Below the pieces are notes generated by a model. That model was not told where the DNA came from. It ran no database searches and was given only the letters and a program-made list of their open reading frames with translations. Shown here piece by piece: positions 5,379 through 60,571 of a stretch of 64,000 nt of DNA (position 1 is the stretch's first letter; each line of letters opens with the position of its first letter). The position numbers were made by a program, and so were the translations under genes. The stretch comes from Acidimicrobiales bacterium. Its GTDB lineage: Bacteria; Actinomycetota; Acidimicrobiia; Acidimicrobiales; Aldehydirespiratoraceae. The stretch spans positions 186,001 through 250,000 of the forward strand of contig JAVJSI010000014.1 of NCBI GenBank assembly GCA_040219515.1, given 5' to 3'.

Positions 5379-6754
5379 CCACCGCCGGCGACGTGCTCGT
5401 CCTCTTCGGGGCCAGCGGCGATCTCTCGCGCCGGAAGCTGTTCCCTGCGTTGTACGAGCTGGAACGCAACAATCGACTCGACGTGCCCGTGGTCGGGGTC
5501 GGGCGTACCGAGATGGACGACGACGGATTCCGCGAACACGGACGAGCCGCGCTCGAGGAGTTCGGGCCCGACCTCGAGCCCGCGGTCCTCGACCGCCTGC
5601 TCGCCCGCCTTCGGTTCGTGTCGGGCGACTATCGCGACGAGGCGATGTTCGACCGGCTGGCCGAGTCGCTCGAAGGCGCAACTCACCCCGTCGCCTATCT
5701 GGCGATCCCGCCGGCGCTGTTCGACGATGTCGCCGCCGGGCTCGCTCGCGTCGGTCTCAACGAGGGTGGCCGCATCGTGGTCGAGAAGCCCTTCGGTCGA
5801 GACCACGCCTCGGCAGTGGAGCTCAACCAGATCCTGCATCGCCACTTCGACGAGTCCGCCGTGTTCCGCATCGACCACTTCCTGGGCAAGGAGCCGGTGC
5901 AGAACCTGATGGTCTTCCGGTTCGCCAACTCGATCCTGGAGCCGGTGTGGAACCGCAACCACATCGCGTCGGTGCAGATCACCATGGCCGAGTCGTTCGG
6001 CATCGAGGGTCGCGGCAGTTTCTACGACGACGTCGGCGCCCTGCGGGATGTGGTGCAGAACCACCTCCTCCAGATCGTGGCGCTGCTGGCGATGGAGCCG
6101 CCGGTCTCCAAGCACCCCGACGCCATGCGCGACGAGAAGGTGAAGATCATGCGGGCCACGAAGTCGCTCACCGCGGCCGACATCGTCCGCGGTCAGTACC
6201 GCGACTATCGCGACGAGGACGGCGTGGATCCGGCGTCGGACACCGAGACCTACGTGGCCGTGCGGCTCGAGATCGACTCGTGGCGCTGGGCCGGGGTGCC
6301 GTTCATCATCCGGGCCGGGAAGGGCCTGGCGACGACTGCGACCGAAGCGGTCGTGCAGTTCCGTCGACCGCCGAGCGCCATTTTCGACGACGGCGGGGAA
6401 CCCGCGGCGAACGTGCTGCGTTTCCGCATGAAGCCCGACGACATGATCACCCTCACGATGCAGGCGAAGGTGCCGGGCCTGGGGATGATGGCCCGGCCCG
6501 TCGATCTCGAGGTCGACTACGACGAAGCCCTCGGTGGCGGCGCGACCGATGCCTACGAGCGACTGCTCGGTGATGCGCTGGCCGGCGACGCCCGCCTCTT
6601 CGCCCGCCAGGACAGCGTCGAGGAGTCGTGGCGCATCGTGGAAGACGTGCTCATCGACGCGCCGCCCGTCGCCCTCTACGAACGCGGTTCGTGGGGACCC
6701 AAGGAAGCGGATCGGCTACTGGCCGGAGGCATGAAGTGGGAGGATTGTGATTGA
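5375..6754 (+). CDS. zwf: Glucose-6-phosphate 1-dehydrogenase
   Basis: This 459-residue protein catalyses the first step of the oxidative pentose-phosphate pathway and makes NAD(P)H. It starts with a GTG inside the gnd stop. The coenzyme-binding GASGDLSRRKLFPALYEL is at residues about 12-29. The active-site block RIDHFLGKEPVQN, with the catalytic His and Lys, is near residue 165-177. The C-terminal a+b domain extends to the end, and the length is normal to slightly short for the family. It overlaps the next small gene by 8 bp, giving a three-gene unit gnd-zwf-small protein. Confidence 0.95.
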   Translation: MTTAGDVLVLFGASGDLSRRKLFPALYELERNNRLDVPVVGVGRTEMDDDGFREHGRAALEEFGPDLEPAVLDRLLARLRFVSGDYRDEAMFDRLAESLEGATHPVAYLAIPPALFDDVAAGLARVGLNEGGRIVVEKPFGRDHASAVELNQILHRHFDESAVFRIDHFLGKEPVQNLMVFRFANSILEPVWNRNHIASVQITMAESFGIEGRGSFYDDVGALRDVVQNHLLQIVALLAMEPPVSKHPDAMRDEKVKIMRATKSLTAADIVRGQYRDYRDEDGVDPASDTETYVAVRLEIDSWRWAGVPFIIRAGKGLATTATEAVVQFRRPPSAIFDDGGEPAANVLRFRMKPDDMITLTMQAKVPGLGMMARPVDLEVDYDEALGGGATDAYERLLGDALAGDARLFARQDSVEESWRIVEDVLIDAPPVALYERGSWGPKEADRLLAGGMKWEDCD

Positions 6755-56680: not shown

Positions 56681-56710
56681 TTGACAGAAAGCACTGAAAC
56701 AACATGAAAT
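56681..56710 (+). promoter_or_regulatory. Captured promoter: TTGACA-N18-TGAAAT at the left flank of the transposon
   Basis: TTGACA (56681-56686) and TGAAAT (56705-56710) are 18 bases apart; TGAAAT lies inside the target duplication. Before insertion this pair would have ended 7 bases before the ATG of the toxin-like gene (now 60578). After insertion it points into the transposon. Confidence 0.6.
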
Positions 56711-56711
56711 G
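56704..56711. repeat. Target-site duplication, left copy (ATGAAATG)
   Basis: ATGAAATG abuts the left inverted repeat and is repeated exactly at 60564-60571 at the other end. Eight bases is the usual duplication length for IS1595-family elements. Confidence 0.95.
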
Positions 56712-56737
56712 GGTGATGTGTGACTTGACGTACCCAC
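56712..56737. repeat. Left terminal inverted repeat of the transposon (26 bp)
   Basis: It begins GGTGATGTGTGACTTGAC and is an exact reverse complement of 60538-60563. After position 26 the similarity stops. It contains TTGACG (56725-56730), a -35-like box without a matching -10 at 17 bases inward on this side. Confidence 0.96.
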
Positions 56738-56769
56738 TGAGAGGTCTGCCGTTGGGCTAAGTTCGGGCG

Positions 56770-57489
56770 ATGGCGGGGACGATCGTGTACATCGACGGGC
56801 TGAATTTTCATGCAGGAGCAGTTCGGGGAACTCCGGAAGCGAAATGGGTCGACTTCGAGGAGCTATCGCGGCGTTTGCTTCCCGCCGGCGACACCTTGGT
56901 TCGCGTCAAGTACTTCACGGCCCCAGTGTCGGCACAGGTAGCCGAAGATCCGGGTTCAGTCCGCCGCCACAACTACCTACTCCGGGCTATCGACGCCAAC
57001 CCATTAGTGGAAGTGCACAAGGGGAAGTTCATTGCTCCCAACGAGTGGCGTTCGATTGCTGTCGACCGACGTTGGGCGGACCGGACCCGGCCAGCCTCTT
57101 GGCCCGCCCTGGGGAAGCTCCTAGACCGCAAACAGTCCAAGTCGCGAGCACAGAGAAGATGGAAGGTCAGGGTGCAGCTACCGCAGGAGAAGCACACCGA
57201 CGTGGCGTTGGCGTCACACCTCTTGGCGGACCTTCTTTCTCCATCGCCGCCTTGCGCTCAAGCAATCCTGGTTTCGAACGACTCGGACTTGATGCCTGCC
57301 GTCAAGATGGCGGTCTCGCTGGGGAACGTCGTGGGGGTCGTCAGCCCGATGGCCGTCGTGGCCAAGGATCTTGAGAAGGTCGCATCGTGGAGTTGGCCCA
57401 TGCGGCGAGAGCTGCCCGGCCAGTGCCAGATGCCTGACATCGTCCCGCTCAAGAAGGGCCACGTGGAGCGCCCCAAGGCCTGGAAATGA
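56770..57489 (+). CDS. NYN-domain (PIN-like) ribonuclease, transposon cargo
   Basis: This 239-residue protein has the NYN fold (LabA/DUF88-like): VYIDGLNFHAG with Asp9, KHTDVALASHLLADLL with Asp144, and LVSNDSDLMPAVKMA with Asp171 and Asp173, the acidic residues that bind Mg2+ in PIN-like RNases. The middle (RKQSKSRAQRRWKVRVQLPQEKHT) is basic and may hold RNA. The C-terminus has a short basic tail. It begins at the ATG at 56770; there is no Shine-Dalgarno. It could be a toxin or an RNA-degrading defence nuclease. Two hairpins follow its stop. Confidence 0.85.
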   Translation: MAGTIVYIDGLNFHAGAVRGTPEAKWVDFEELSRRLLPAGDTLVRVKYFTAPVSAQVAEDPGSVRRHNYLLRAIDANPLVEVHKGKFIAPNEWRSIAVDRRWADRTRPASWPALGKLLDRKQSKSRAQRRWKVRVQLPQEKHTDVALASHLLADLLSPSPPCAQAILVSNDSDLMPAVKMAVSLGNVVGVVSPMAVVAKDLEKVASWSWPMRRELPGQCQMPDIVPLKKGHVERPKAWK

Positions 57490-57493
57490 CAGA

Positions 57494-57515
57494 AGCCCAC
57501 CCTTGCGGGTGGGCT
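57494..57515 (+). terminator. Hairpin after the NYN gene (9-bp stem)
   Basis: AGCCCACCC-TTGC-GGGTGGGCT is a perfect 9-bp stem with a 4-base loop starting 5 bases after the stop. No T-run follows. The short loop and strong stem fit an actinobacterial-type terminator. Confidence 0.7.
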
Positions 57516-57520
57516 CCGAA

Positions 57521-57542
57521 TCTCACCGACGAAGCGGTGAGA
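57521..57542. terminator. Second hairpin (8-bp stem)
   Basis: TCTCACCG pairs with CGGTGAGA across a 6-base loop, 6 bp after the first hairpin. Tandem hairpins sit between the NYN gene and the 3' end of the converging 47-residue gene and could end both transcripts. Confidence 0.55.
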
Positions 57543-57575
57543 GGGTTATGACTGCATCATACCCACAGCGACGCT

Positions 57576-57719
57576 CTAGTCAACTAGGTCTTCCGATTCA
57601 GTTCCGTCCTCAACGGGGTCGCGATCGGGGTCGACGGCGAGTAGCGCCTTCAGCGCCTCCTCGGGGTCGAGCGGTATGGCGACTCGTTCGTCACGGTCGG
57701 GTACCCCATGATCGCTCAT
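57576..57719 (-). CDS. 47-residue small acidic protein, transposon cargo
   Basis: This short minus-strand gene reads from an ATG at 57719 to a TAG at 57576, with AGAGG 7 bases upstream. The core IPLDPEEALKALLAVDPD is predicted helical, with a strongly acidic flank (DRDPVEDGTESEDLVD). I recall similar short DPEEAL...LLxVDPD proteins elsewhere, but not their function. It is divergent from the HTH-ImmA/IrrE operon across a 47-bp promoter region and convergent with the NYN gene. Small acidic proteins in such a place may be antitoxins or regulators. Confidence 0.65.
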   Translation of the reverse strand: MSDHGVPDRDERVAIPLDPEEALKALLAVDPDRDPVEDGTESEDLVD

Positions 57720-57730
57720 TCTTGAACCTC

Positions 57731-57760
57731 TTGACAGTTTGTGTCGATCCTGCTTATCTC
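57731..57760 (+). promoter_or_regulatory. Candidate promoter of the cargo operon
   Basis: TTGACA (57731-57736) and TATCTC (57755-57760) are 18 bases apart, and the ATG at 57767 follows 6 bases later, again a leaderless arrangement. The -10 match is weak. The 47-residue gene starts at 57719 on the other strand. Confidence 0.45.
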
Positions 57761-57766
57761 ATAAGC

Positions 57767-58384
57767 ATGGTCTACCCAATCCCGGAGCCGGATGATGTGC
57801 TCCCCGTCGTACTTGACGATCTCGCCCACCTTGTGCCCTCGCTCTCGGCCGGTATCGACTTCGCGAATGATCTTCTCTCCGATGATACCGACAAGGACAA
57901 CCACTACTGGTCCCACAGCGCTCGGTACAAGGCTCGTCGCGAACTCATCGCCTCGGGCGCGCCGGTTCGGCCCGACGTGGCCAACTCGGGTATCCACCTC
58001 GTTCTCGGAGATCTACACACTGCTCGCGTACTTCGGTCGGTCAATCGGGAAACCCCGCCCCCAGGACACAGCACGGAACGGCGCAGCGAGTACAACGTTC
58101 AGCAGACTCTGAATCTCGCGATTGGTGTGAACGGCCAGAGGCTTCCATCCCTGCCGTTCGTGATCGATTGGTATGACCTCGACGACGAACCGGTCGTGCA
58201 CATCGGGCTTCCACGCGAGCCATGGTCATGGGGCAAGAAGATCAAGATGTTCTGGCGTGTACCCCTTCCAGGCGCAGAAGGCGGCTACTCAGGGCTCAGG
58301 TTCAACCCGTCCGACGATGGCGGCGAACCCGACATCGTCTACGTTCACCCAGCCGAAGAATCGAGGAAGGGTCAGTCAGGGTGA
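57767..58384 (+). CDS. Unknown protein, first gene of the HTH-ImmA/IrrE pair (transposon cargo)
   Basis: This 205-residue soluble protein has no signal peptide and no catalytic motif I recognise. The N-terminal half is helical and has many charged residues (LLSDDTDKDNHYWSHSARYKARREL). The C-terminal half is Trp-, Pro- and Gly-rich beta (VIDWYDLDDEPVVHIGLPREPWSWGKKIKMFWRVPLPG, then YSGLRFNPSDDGGEPDIVYVHPA). It overlaps the next gene by 4 bp (GTGA), so the two proteins are made together and probably interact. A toxin or a target of the ImmA/IrrE peptidase is plausible. Confidence 0.7.
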   Translation: MVYPIPEPDDVLPVVLDDLAHLVPSLSAGIDFANDLLSDDTDKDNHYWSHSARYKARRELIASGAPVRPDVANSGIHLVLGDLHTARVLRSVNRETPPPGHSTERRSEYNVQQTLNLAIGVNGQRLPSLPFVIDWYDLDDEPVVHIGLPREPWSWGKKIKMFWRVPLPGAEGGYSGLRFNPSDDGGEPDIVYVHPAEESRKGQSG

Positions 58385-59418
58385 CGGTCGGAGATCGAAT
58401 CCGCCATGTACTCGAGTACTACGGCTGGACGCAGAAAGACCTCGGTCTTCACCTTGGAGTGACGCAACCCCGCGTTAATCAGATGCTTGGGGCGATTTCG
58501 CTCGATCCAAGCCGGCTGGATGAGCTCGCGGCGGCCACCGGATTTTCGCCAGATTTTTTCTCGCGGGGACCGCTTCCGGACCTCCCCGAAGGAAGCCTTC
58601 GATTCAGGAAGAAGGCAAGAGCGACCCAGCGCGACGACGACCGCGTGCGCGCTGTCGTGCGTCACACGATCGAGGCAGTCCAGCTGGCATCCACAGTCGC
58701 CTCACCGCCACCGGTCCGCATCCAGTCTCTCCACGACGACATTCCCCTGAACGAGATCGAAACCGTGGCCGAGTCGGCACGAGAATGGCTTGGGGTGGGA
58801 CGAATGGACCCGATCGCCAACATCGTCCGTGCAGTCGAACGCGCCGGTGTCGTGGTCGTCTATGCCAACGCGGAGGTCACCAGCACGGACCGACTCGACC
58901 ACGACGGTGCCGCGTTCTGGCCCGACCCTCCCGTTGGGGTACCTGTGATCTACGCAACACGTGGACGCACGGGCGACCGGACGCGACTCACCGTTGCTCA
59001 TGAACTCGGGCATCTCGTCTTGCATCAGTATCGCCATCCCCCGTCGGTCCAGGCCGCCGAGGAAGAAGCGTTCCGCTTTGGCTCGTCCCTGATCGTGCCG
59101 GCCGATGCAATCCACTCGCTGCGCACACCGATCACCTTGAAGGTCTTGGTCGAAGCCAAGGCGCGATGGGGGATGTCAGTGCAAGCGCTTGTCAAGCGGT
59201 GCTACGACCTGAACGTCATCGACAAAGACCGGCAGACGTCGCTCTACAAGCAGATCGCGTCCCGCGGGTGGCGGACCGCAGAACCGGTTGAGGTTCCGGT
59301 AGAGGAACCGGCACTGATGCGGCGTCTTATGGAAGCGGCATACGGGTCTTCGGACCCGATGCGGGTCGGAAAGAAGCTGGGGATACCGGCGATTCCGACT
59401 CGCGATCTAGTCGCTTGA
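58381..59418 (+). CDS. HTH-ImmA/IrrE metallopeptidase (transposon cargo)
   Basis: This 345-residue protein starts at a GTG in the preceding stop. Residues 3-60 form an XRE-type HTH (VLEYYGWTQKDLGLHLGVTQPRVNQMLGA). Residues about 130-300 form an ImmA/IrrE (COG2856) zinc peptidase with H207, E208, H211 in VAHELGHLVLHQY and a downstream Glu-rich helix EEEAFRFGSSLIVP. Such proteins cleave repressors to induce mobile elements or stress genes, or serve as antitoxins. Here it overlaps an unknown gene and rides in a transposon. An operator near 57720-57766 may be its own target. Confidence 0.88.
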   Translation: MTVGDRIRHVLEYYGWTQKDLGLHLGVTQPRVNQMLGAISLDPSRLDELAAATGFSPDFFSRGPLPDLPEGSLRFRKKARATQRDDDRVRAVVRHTIEAVQLASTVASPPPVRIQSLHDDIPLNEIETVAESAREWLGVGRMDPIANIVRAVERAGVVVVYANAEVTSTDRLDHDGAAFWPDPPVGVPVIYATRGRTGDRTRLTVAHELGHLVLHQYRHPPSVQAAEEEAFRFGSSLIVPADAIHSLRTPITLKVLVEAKARWGMSVQALVKRCYDLNVIDKDRQTSLYKQIASRGWRTAEPVEVPVEEPALMRRLMEAAYGSSDPMRVGKKLGIPAIPTRDLVA

Positions 59419-59507
59419 CCTCCTGCTAGGGGCATGTTCTGGTTGACCGCTGCGGGCCTTGGAAGCTGCTGCGTCGGGTCCGATCCCCGAATGCTCCACC
59501 TTACCGA

Positions 59508-60515
59508 TCAGTCACGCCTGAGTGGCTTCCAGGACAACCGGCGCCCCTGCGTCTGATCGATGACCCGGCGCATGCGCTCGGTGTCGGTCATGTCCCGGGT
59601 GGAGTAGCGGTAGTCGAACTCGGCGAGGTACCGGGGCAGGTGCTCAGGTGAGACGTGGTGGTGGGTGCCGTCGATGCTGCGCTTCAGCTGGCTGAAGAAG
59701 TTTTCGGCCTGGTTCGTGGACACGTCGCCGCGGACGTATTCGTGGCGGTCATGCGCCACATGCTCGTGTGACACGAACTCGTGGCCGATCTGGCGGTAGC
59801 CGGCGTGTCCATCGGTGTGGAGGTGGCTCGATGGCGTATCGACCTGCTCGGCGATCGCGTCGCGCAGCGTGTCGCCGGTGACGTTGGGGACGACTCGTGA
59901 TCGGACCTCGCCCGTGGTCTTGTCGACCAGCGACAGTACAGCGGTCTTGTGATGGGGGGTGCCTGCGTAGCCCTTGGAGGTGCCGGGGCGCTTGCGGCCT
60001 TGCTGGTGCTTGTTCTTTGGCAGACCGCCGATGAACGTCTCGTCAGCAACGACGGTGGTGTTGGCCAGGAGTCCGGCCATTGGCTCACGCTTCATCGCTT
60101 CACGAATCCGATGCGTCATGAACCACGCCGACTTGGCAGTCAACTCATACTTGCGTTCGATCTCGCGGGCCGAGATGCCGTTCTTCGATGCACACATCTC
60201 GAAGATCACGAACAGCCACTTGCGCACCGAGATCTTGGTGCCGTGGAAGATGGTGCCGGTGAGTACCGAGAACTGGTGGCGGCAGTCGGCGCACTTCCAG
60301 CGACGACGCTGGGTTGCGGTGCCACGGTTCGTCTTGCGTGTCTCGCCGCCGTCCTTGGGGGCGATGAAGTAGAACTTGCGAACGCTGCCGCACTTCGGGC
60401 ACGACTGGCCGGAGCGGTCCTCGCCCCAACGCATGTCCTCCAGCAGCTTGTACGCCTCTGCCTCGGTAGTGATGCGCTCCGCTAGGCGGATGATCGAGAT
60501 GGGTTCGCTGCTCAT
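59508..60515 (-). CDS. IS1595-family transposase
   Basis: This 335-residue transposase has an N-terminal zinc ribbon (C39, C42, C75, C78: SCPKCG, KCADCRH) and a catalytic core with Asp158 (VVADETFIGG), Asp235 (HTDGHAGY) and Glu271 in TNQAENFFSQLKRSIDGTHHHVSPEHLPRYLAEF, with K277 nearby. That layout is characteristic of the IS1595 group. The ATG at 60515 was chosen because a promoter with TTGACG-N17-CATAAT places +1 on its A; the TTG at 60536 is a possible but less likely start. The gene faces inward from the right end. Confidence 0.95.
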   Translation of the reverse strand: MSSEPISIIRLAERITTEAEAYKLLEDMRWGEDRSGQSCPKCGSVRKFYFIAPKDGGETRKTNRGTATQRRRWKCADCRHQFSVLTGTIFHGTKISVRKWLFVIFEMCASKNGISAREIERKYELTAKSAWFMTHRIREAMKREPMAGLLANTTVVADETFIGGLPKNKHQQGRKRPGTSKGYAGTPHHKTAVLSLVDKTTGEVRSRVVPNVTGDTLRDAIAEQVDTPSSHLHTDGHAGYRQIGHEFVSHEHVAHDRHEYVRGDVSTNQAENFFSQLKRSIDGTHHHVSPEHLPRYLAEFDYRYSTRDMTDTERMRRVIDQTQGRRLSWKPLRRD

Positions 60516-60521
60516 GCACCC

Positions 60522-60550
60522 ATTATGCCTGTTCAACGTGGGTACGTCAA
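60522..60550 (-). promoter_or_regulatory. Transposase promoter with its -35 box in the right inverted repeat
   Basis: On the minus strand TTGACG (60545-60550) lies inside the right inverted repeat and CATAAT (60522-60527) lies just inside it, with a 17-base spacer. Start would be at 60515, the A of the ATG. Expression of the transposase thus depends on the repeat itself. Confidence 0.7.
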
Positions 60551-60563
60551 GTCACACATCACC
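60538..60563. repeat. Right terminal inverted repeat of the transposon (26 bp)
   Basis: An exact reverse complement of 56712-56737, ending CACATCACC next to ATGAAATG. It carries the -35 box of the transposase promoter on the minus strand. Confidence 0.96.
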
Positions 60564-60571
60564 ATGAAATG
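60564..60571. repeat. Target-site duplication, right copy (ATGAAATG)
   Basis: It matches 56704-56711. It retains the TGAAAT -10-like box (60565-60570) of the toxin-like gene, 7 bases before the ATG at 60578, but the original -35 box is now 3.9 kb away. Confidence 0.95.

Follow-up and report, generated by a model that had tools for sequence, protein, structure and literature searches.

The window analysed here, a 64,000-nucleotide stretch of DNA, contains a minus-strand frame of 47 codons that reads from ATG at 57719 to TAG at 57576, exactly as a preliminary description of this DNA had proposed. The fair Shine-Dalgarno sequence claimed for it is present as AAGAGG, 7 nt before the ATG, and its assignment to a transposon was right: the gene lies within an intact IS1595-family element (56712-60563) with perfect inverted repeats and an 8-bp duplication. 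The features of the element are as follows.

56704-56711, no strand: 8-bp target site duplication ATGAAATG, identical to 60564-60571
56712-56737, plus strand: terminal inverted repeat, GGTGATGTGTGACTTGACGTACCCAC, 26 of 26 bases paired with the opposite end
56770-57489, plus strand: NYN-domain protein of HEC-09 type (PADLOC HEC-09, E 1.2e-26; Pfam NYN, E 1.8e-6)
57492-57517, minus strand: terminator-like hairpin in the interval that separates the convergent small and NYN genes (1 found; mean in shuffles 0.3)
57576-57719, minus strand: gene for a 47-aa small protein (type A), ATG to TAG, encoding MSDHGVPDRDERVAIPLDPEEALKALLAVDPDRDPVEDGTESEDLVD and a stop; matched by profiles and in the held-out test
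57636-57665, minus strand: codons for the predicted helix, residues 19-28 (AlphaFold2, 11 sequences, mean pLDDT 73.9)
57727-57732 (plus-strand coordinates), minus strand: Shine-Dalgarno-like AAGAGG, 7 nt 5' of the ATG, read from the sequence
57767-58384, plus strand: RmrT-like toxin, 205 aa (PADLOC RmrT, E 2.1e-9), with a 4-bp overlap with the RmrA-like gene
58381-59418, plus strand: RmrA-like antitoxin, HTH and M78/ImmA protease (PADLOC RmrA, E 9.2e-76; Pfam M78)
59508-60536, minus strand: IS1595-family transposase (zinc ribbon PF12760, E 1.5e-11; DDE_Tnp_IS1595 PF12762, E 1.4e-36)
60538-60563, minus strand: terminal inverted repeat, opposite end, 26 of 26 bases paired
60564-60571, no strand: second copy of the target site duplication, ATGAAATG

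Membership of the IS1595 family is indicated by the zinc ribbon and DDE_Tnp_IS1595 domains of the transposase, by inverted repeats that begin with GG and by a duplication matching at 8 of 8 bp; the transposase also scores above the cut-off of NCBIfam NF033547 (E 7.7e-55). These transposase domains, repeats and 8-bp duplications are shared with the family as it appears in sections of PMC8101967, which give it 8-bp duplications as a rule, a single transposase gene and seven groups, including ISPna2 and IS1016. The window element is single copy in its assembly, and its perfect ends suggest that the insertion is recent. The next plus-strand frame (listed ATG at 60569) begins almost immediately beyond the element end at 60563, so the insertion has probably split that gene from its promoter. 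The inverted repeats of the IS1595 elements (in the window, 56712-56737 and 60538-60563) contain TTGAC(A), a possible inward -35 box beside the transposase start, and in other elements the outer part of the repeat is ATTATATAC.

The cargo at 57767-59418 is a RosmerTA-like pair, with an RmrA-type antitoxin beside an RmrT toxin. Like the family presented in parts of PMC10440598, in which varied toxins are combined with an ImmA-type protease antitoxin and defend against phage, it has an RmrT-like gene overlapping an RmrA-like HTH-protease gene. RosmerTA is a described two-gene system, whereas the 47-aa protein lies outside it and matches no PADLOC model. Both RosmerTA and the HEC-09/NYN nuclease are families catalogued as phage defence. 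Related elements carry AbiU/AIPR, methylase-Mrr, type I-like methylases, PIN, ParE or DUF433-DUF5615 genes. An impression of HEPN-like cargo in three loci (L107, L122, L126) was unsupported by Pfam and PADLOC.

The small gene lies between the NYN gene, which is convergent with it, and the RmrT gene, which is divergent from it and starts 47 bp from the small-gene start. No clear promoter was found for the small gene; the sole minus-strand candidate in the vicinity is a weak match that overlaps the start. A 93-aa minus-strand frame (57716-57997) that ends in an ATGA overlapping the small-gene start was rejected as an upstream partner, because it is antisense to the RmrT-like gene and has no family match. 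The small protein has a computed pI of about 4.05 and a net charge of -12. Its G+C by codon position is 0.85, 0.35 and 0.67, differing from the neighbouring genes chiefly in a stronger first-position bias. It is single copy in its own genome, the other match there reaching only E 0.09 within a 682-aa frame.

The length of the frame proves nothing by itself, since 88 ORFs of at least 40 aa overlap the 10-kb stretch around it. These dozens of spurious frames of similar size, together with the want of a clear promoter, are what could be said for a chance frame in GC-rich DNA that is not a gene. The existence of homologues raises the small gene above chance. Homologous small frames recur in other elements of the same transposase clade, at least 16 in number, and in held-out elements of other clades, and we regard a chance frame as very improbable. 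The preliminary description had likewise thought chance unlikely, and the recurrence of the frame in other IS1595 elements bears this out. Among seven relatives, 525 codon comparisons gave 145, 139 and 314 differences at positions 1, 2 and 3; these counts fit selection on the protein but are biased, since the relatives were chosen by protein similarity. No closely related, non-identical copy of the small gene was found. Stop codons and frameshifts in related copies had been named as evidence that would tell against the gene; the listed relatives keep an open small frame, and the match in G084:C96 reaches a TAG at its end. As judged from sequence comparison, the 47-aa ORF is a genuine protein gene of the kind that usual annotation would skip.

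A homologue search had been proposed as the main check on the gene, and it did yield homologues. One strong foreign relative emerged from 247 genomes of the class (G060, 65% identity, E 3e-6) and one from 396 genomes of the phylum (G568, E 7e-9), in agreement with the short acidic proteins of other actinobacteria mentioned in the preliminary description. A scan of genome contigs gave three loci, each with an IS1595 transposase nearby: L054 (a Rubrobacter sp. record), L055 (Actinomycetota palsa_555) and L056 (Actinomycetota MAG 0813_bin2). Two of these are the G060 and G568 contigs again, and L056 is a third relative. In the strong relatives the small frame is flanked by an IS1595 transposase and by inverted repeats of the window's kind, and the weaker matches on two contigs of G084 likewise have both. 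The cargo varies: L054 has DUF433, DUF5615 and a methylase-like frame, L056 an NYN-like frame (by eye) and L026 a different set of genes. Two points go beyond the preliminary description: the location of the relatives in IS1595 transposons, and the position of the acidic form as a single branch of a larger family.

A profile search of 395 class genomes returned 14 matches, the eight strongest of which (E < 1e-13) all fall in IS1595 elements; seven of these share a contig with a transposase, and the eighth is G111. Among the six weaker matches, G084:C88 and G713 have an IS1595 transposase; G713, found blind by a weak match (E 8e-4), is an element with an 8/8-bp duplication and a transposase 49% identical to the window's. 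No transposase was found within about 6 kb or on the contig for G196 and G170 (class search) or for G592 (phylum search). The G632 and G103 matches lie inside long frames, and such matches in the wider class, phylum and profile searches were judged to be chance. The three small-protein-like frames that have no IS1595 transposase nearby stand at L191:6557, L192:565 and L193:5964; the first of these (HHPTPEERDERVKVDLDP...) seems to be a genuine relative that is not part of any recognisable element. In single-sequence tblastn searches, for which short queries are a limit, the window protein had no match at E 1 in the phage and plasmid collections, nor did three type-B or related proteins match plasmids or phages.

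We also approached the association from the transposase side. IS1595 loci were gathered with the window transposase or an alignment of five transposases, and their frames of at least 20 aa were scanned with the small-protein profiles; duplicate loci (L031, L055, L099, L152, L158, L170, L171 and L172) were removed before counting. Of 17 distinct transposases at least 45% identical to the window's, 16 have a small-protein relative, which for 15 is a type-A relative found by profile in the same locus. The relative of the sixteenth (G111:C288, a 3.8-kb contig) is on a separate contig, C362; because both contigs (L028, L057) terminate in the same inverted repeat and their 8-bp flanks match, they represent opposite ends of a single element. 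The seventeenth (G412, L169), in an element with a matching 8-bp flank, has no separate small frame, but the last residues of a long cargo frame are similar (E 0.14, by eye). This small-protein-like sequence forms the tail of the frame L169:5379-6515, with no intervening stop. With G713 added, 17 of 18 transposases with about 45% identity or more have a relative in or beside the element. The window small protein itself scores E 2e-15 against the family profile over the ORF set. In L058 (G142:C36), two different IS1595 elements stand back to back with the duplication ACGCGTGA at all three boundaries; the arrangement looks like the insertion of one element into the duplication of the other, and each has its own small-protein gene.

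The core of the small protein is xSLxPLxFExALxxLLxVxPP or, in an acidic version into which the window ORF fits, DERVxIPLDPEEALRALLxVDPD. Basic relatives ('RMLxTPPKPHK', 'DEARFNxxLxKLAxxKPK'), which iterated profiles detect beside more distant transposases, grade into the acidic type. Type B is exemplified by FNETLKRMLKTPPKPHDKADKAK and type C by DRFKEAARELETDDDEARFNERLRKLAKQK; in three elements a fourth type, such as RYPPGTTPEKVAKALLRPTKPP, was picked out by visual inspection alone. Types A, B and C were treated as one family, because iteration joins type C to type B and because L090, L092 and L098 bridge A and B. All types are likely homologous, although the sequences are too short for proof.

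The generality of the association was assessed by a five-fold held-out test on 70 elements delineated by inverted repeats, the window included, 49 of them with an exact 8-bp duplication. Held-out profiles matched 46 of the 70 elements (31 of the 49 with exact duplications) and recovered the window small protein. These 46 matches fell in 202,344 bp inside elements, against 2 in 597,054 bp outside. Loci whose ends were not delineated gave 25 more held-out matches; for 24 the distance to a transposase match was 0.44-1.9 kb (between midpoints), and the last was on the G111 contig that lacks a transposase. A separate control with the full profiles gave no match among 30,860 reversed ORFs. Folds were divided locus by locus, which means that related loci may carry shared signal across folds, and related sequences are common to the profiles as well as to the folds. 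Of the 24 elements without a held-out match, 12 have a candidate by eye or with a laxer profile and 12 have no candidate at all; eight of the 12 without one come from the class to which the window belongs and have transposases less than 45% identical. As a rule there is one small protein of 40-80 aa per element. A check for a constant location with respect to the transposase was negative, and among 47 small genes 27 run opposite to the transposase and 20 along it. No element reduced to the transposase and small gene was seen; the smallest with this layout, L177 (Pseudosulfitobacter; 1869 bp, inverted repeats, 7/8-base duplication), has as cargo an 88-aa Cas2-like frame (5451-5717, minus strand; weak Pfam match, E 0.005).

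Annotated plasmids repeat the layout, and in four of them the small gene is listed as a 'hypothetical protein'. In Methylobacterium oryzae pMOC1 and a Roseomonas marmotae plasmid, both with 8/8-bp duplications, a transposase, a hypothetical gene and VapC or PIN are followed by a 'hypothetical protein' of 61-62 aa (WP_172685429.1 and WP_208776144.1, respectively). The counterparts in Sulfitobacter guttiformis (48 aa, WP_015063267.1) and Pseudosulfitobacter (46 aa, WP_224557369.1) lie in elements with duplications of 3/8 and 7/8. A type-B frame occurs in the unannotated record of Mesorhizobium AR07, in an element with an 8/8 duplication.

Distances between small proteins are correlated with those between the transposases of their elements (Spearman rho 0.61, 77 pairs; none of 2000 permutations as high), and the correlation persists among the 56 non-A pairs (rho 0.40; again none of 2000), host lineage being a confounder. 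Transposase segments shorter than 150 residues were left out of these pairs, and L139_513 and L122_5653, outside delineated elements, were kept. The cargo does not set the small-protein type. Type A accompanies NYN and RosmerTA in the window, DUF433 and DUF5615 in L054 and methylase-Mrr in L087. Conversely, methylase-Mrr goes with type A (L087) and type B (L103), PIN proteins with type B (L116, L125) and type C (L174, L175), and DUF1828 with an A-profile (L111) and a B-profile (L150) member. This comparison also counts against host lineage as the explanation of the transposase correlation.

The small protein might instead be a partner of the cargo: a third member of the adjoining toxin-antitoxin or defence module, whether antitoxin-like, chaperone-like or coupled to it in translation. 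The profiled cargo is mostly of the toxin or defence kind (PIN, ParE, DUF433-DUF5615, AIPR/AbiU, methylases, RosmerTA, NYN), and many antitoxins are short and partly disordered. Moreover, a link to the cargo is also compatible with the many elements whose small gene adjoins or overlaps a cargo gene or is in frame with one. Its start lies within a few bases of a cargo-gene end in L054, L174, L175 and L176, and in L131 (3464-3898) no stop separates a small-protein-like sequence from the end of a ParE toxin in the same frame; these abutting and fused genes (L054, L131, L174-L176), like the cargo-frame tail in L169, point to the cargo. However, a given type accompanies unrelated cargo, methylases among them, which have no need of an antitoxin, and a given cargo occurs with different types. 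Complete antitoxin-toxin pairs (the window RosmerTA, DUF433-DUF5615 in L054) are still accompanied by the small gene, the count is one per element and not per module, and in the window the small gene diverges from that of the toxin and converges with the NYN gene. We therefore consider a cargo partner somewhat unlikely.

The preliminary description had called the core regular and helical. AlphaFold2, run on 11 relatives, gives one short helix (residues 19-28) in coil, with a mean pLDDT of 73.9 and a pTM of 0.33, and so upholds the helical core. The charged chain, with its short amphipathic helix and DPEE cap, would suit a peptide that folds on a partner. A translated peptide with no specific partner, either a leader or coupling peptide or a spacer protecting the end of the cargo operon, with a loosely conserved composition, would account for the short low-complexity tails, the variable position and the single helix predicted at modest confidence. 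It fits poorly with a specific core motif that is recovered in held-out loci, is absent from reversed ORFs and covaries with the transposase, and we think it improbable.

Searches of Pfam, NCBIfam, PHROGs and PADLOC gave the window small protein (P0001) no family match. For five sequences of type B, type C or intermediate character, nothing convincing was matched in Pfam or PHROGs; the best scores (Pfam E 0.026, PHROGs E 0.046) both came from one type-C protein, against families that are unrelated or uncharacterised. The family shares with short type II antitoxins its small size, a disordered tail and frequent proximity to a toxin gene, but no type II antitoxin or DNA-binding family was matched, a single 10-residue helix is predicted, and cargo is not matched to small-protein type. 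Accessory transposon proteins exist elsewhere, as in TnpA/TnpB of IS66 and IstB of IS21. These are likewise constant extra genes beside a DDE transposase, independent of cargo; the IS1595 small protein differs in its 40-80 aa, single helix and lack of a fixed position, and no sequence relation is expected. Siguier and colleagues are said to have noted passenger genes in some IS1595 elements. In contrast to the single transposase gene described for the family in sections of PMC8101967, here a second, tiny gene recurs with variable cargo. Such a gene is absent from the searched portions of the literature, including PMC8101967, PMC7371123 and PMC11092175, although the original IS1595 family paper or IS reviews might mention one.

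Taken together, it appears that the small gene is probably an overlooked working part of cargo-carrying IS1595 transposons. This tiny, mostly disordered one-helix protein would be the product of an accessory gene of the IS1595 element, whatever the cargo; its helix-forming peptide may dock on the transposase or a host factor and so tune transposition or maintenance of the element. Because the protein is constant across cargo and covaries with the transposase, we favour action at the level of the element over partnership with one particular toxin, and give this functional reading about an even chance. A broader proposal is possible but more doubtful: cargo-carrying IS1595 transposons would be two-component, with a transposase and a tiny, fast-evolving protein (types A to D) that is needed or controlling and goes unannotated owing to its size, the pair would be a general vehicle shuttling anti-phage and toxin-antitoxin genes among bacteria, and the window ORF would be the actinobacterial acidic form.

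To judge by their cargo, IS1595 elements of this kind seem to be small vehicles for defence and addiction genes, a widespread class that moves anti-phage and toxin-antitoxin genes between bacteria. The small-protein family is easily overlooked, appearing as 'hypothetical proteins' on annotated plasmids and unlisted on the unannotated Mesorhizobium record. A constant second gene, if true, would change the definition and annotation of IS1595 elements, and it would be a ready marker for finding passenger transposons and their defence genes. It also raises the question of what a one-helix protein of 40-80 residues does for a transposon.
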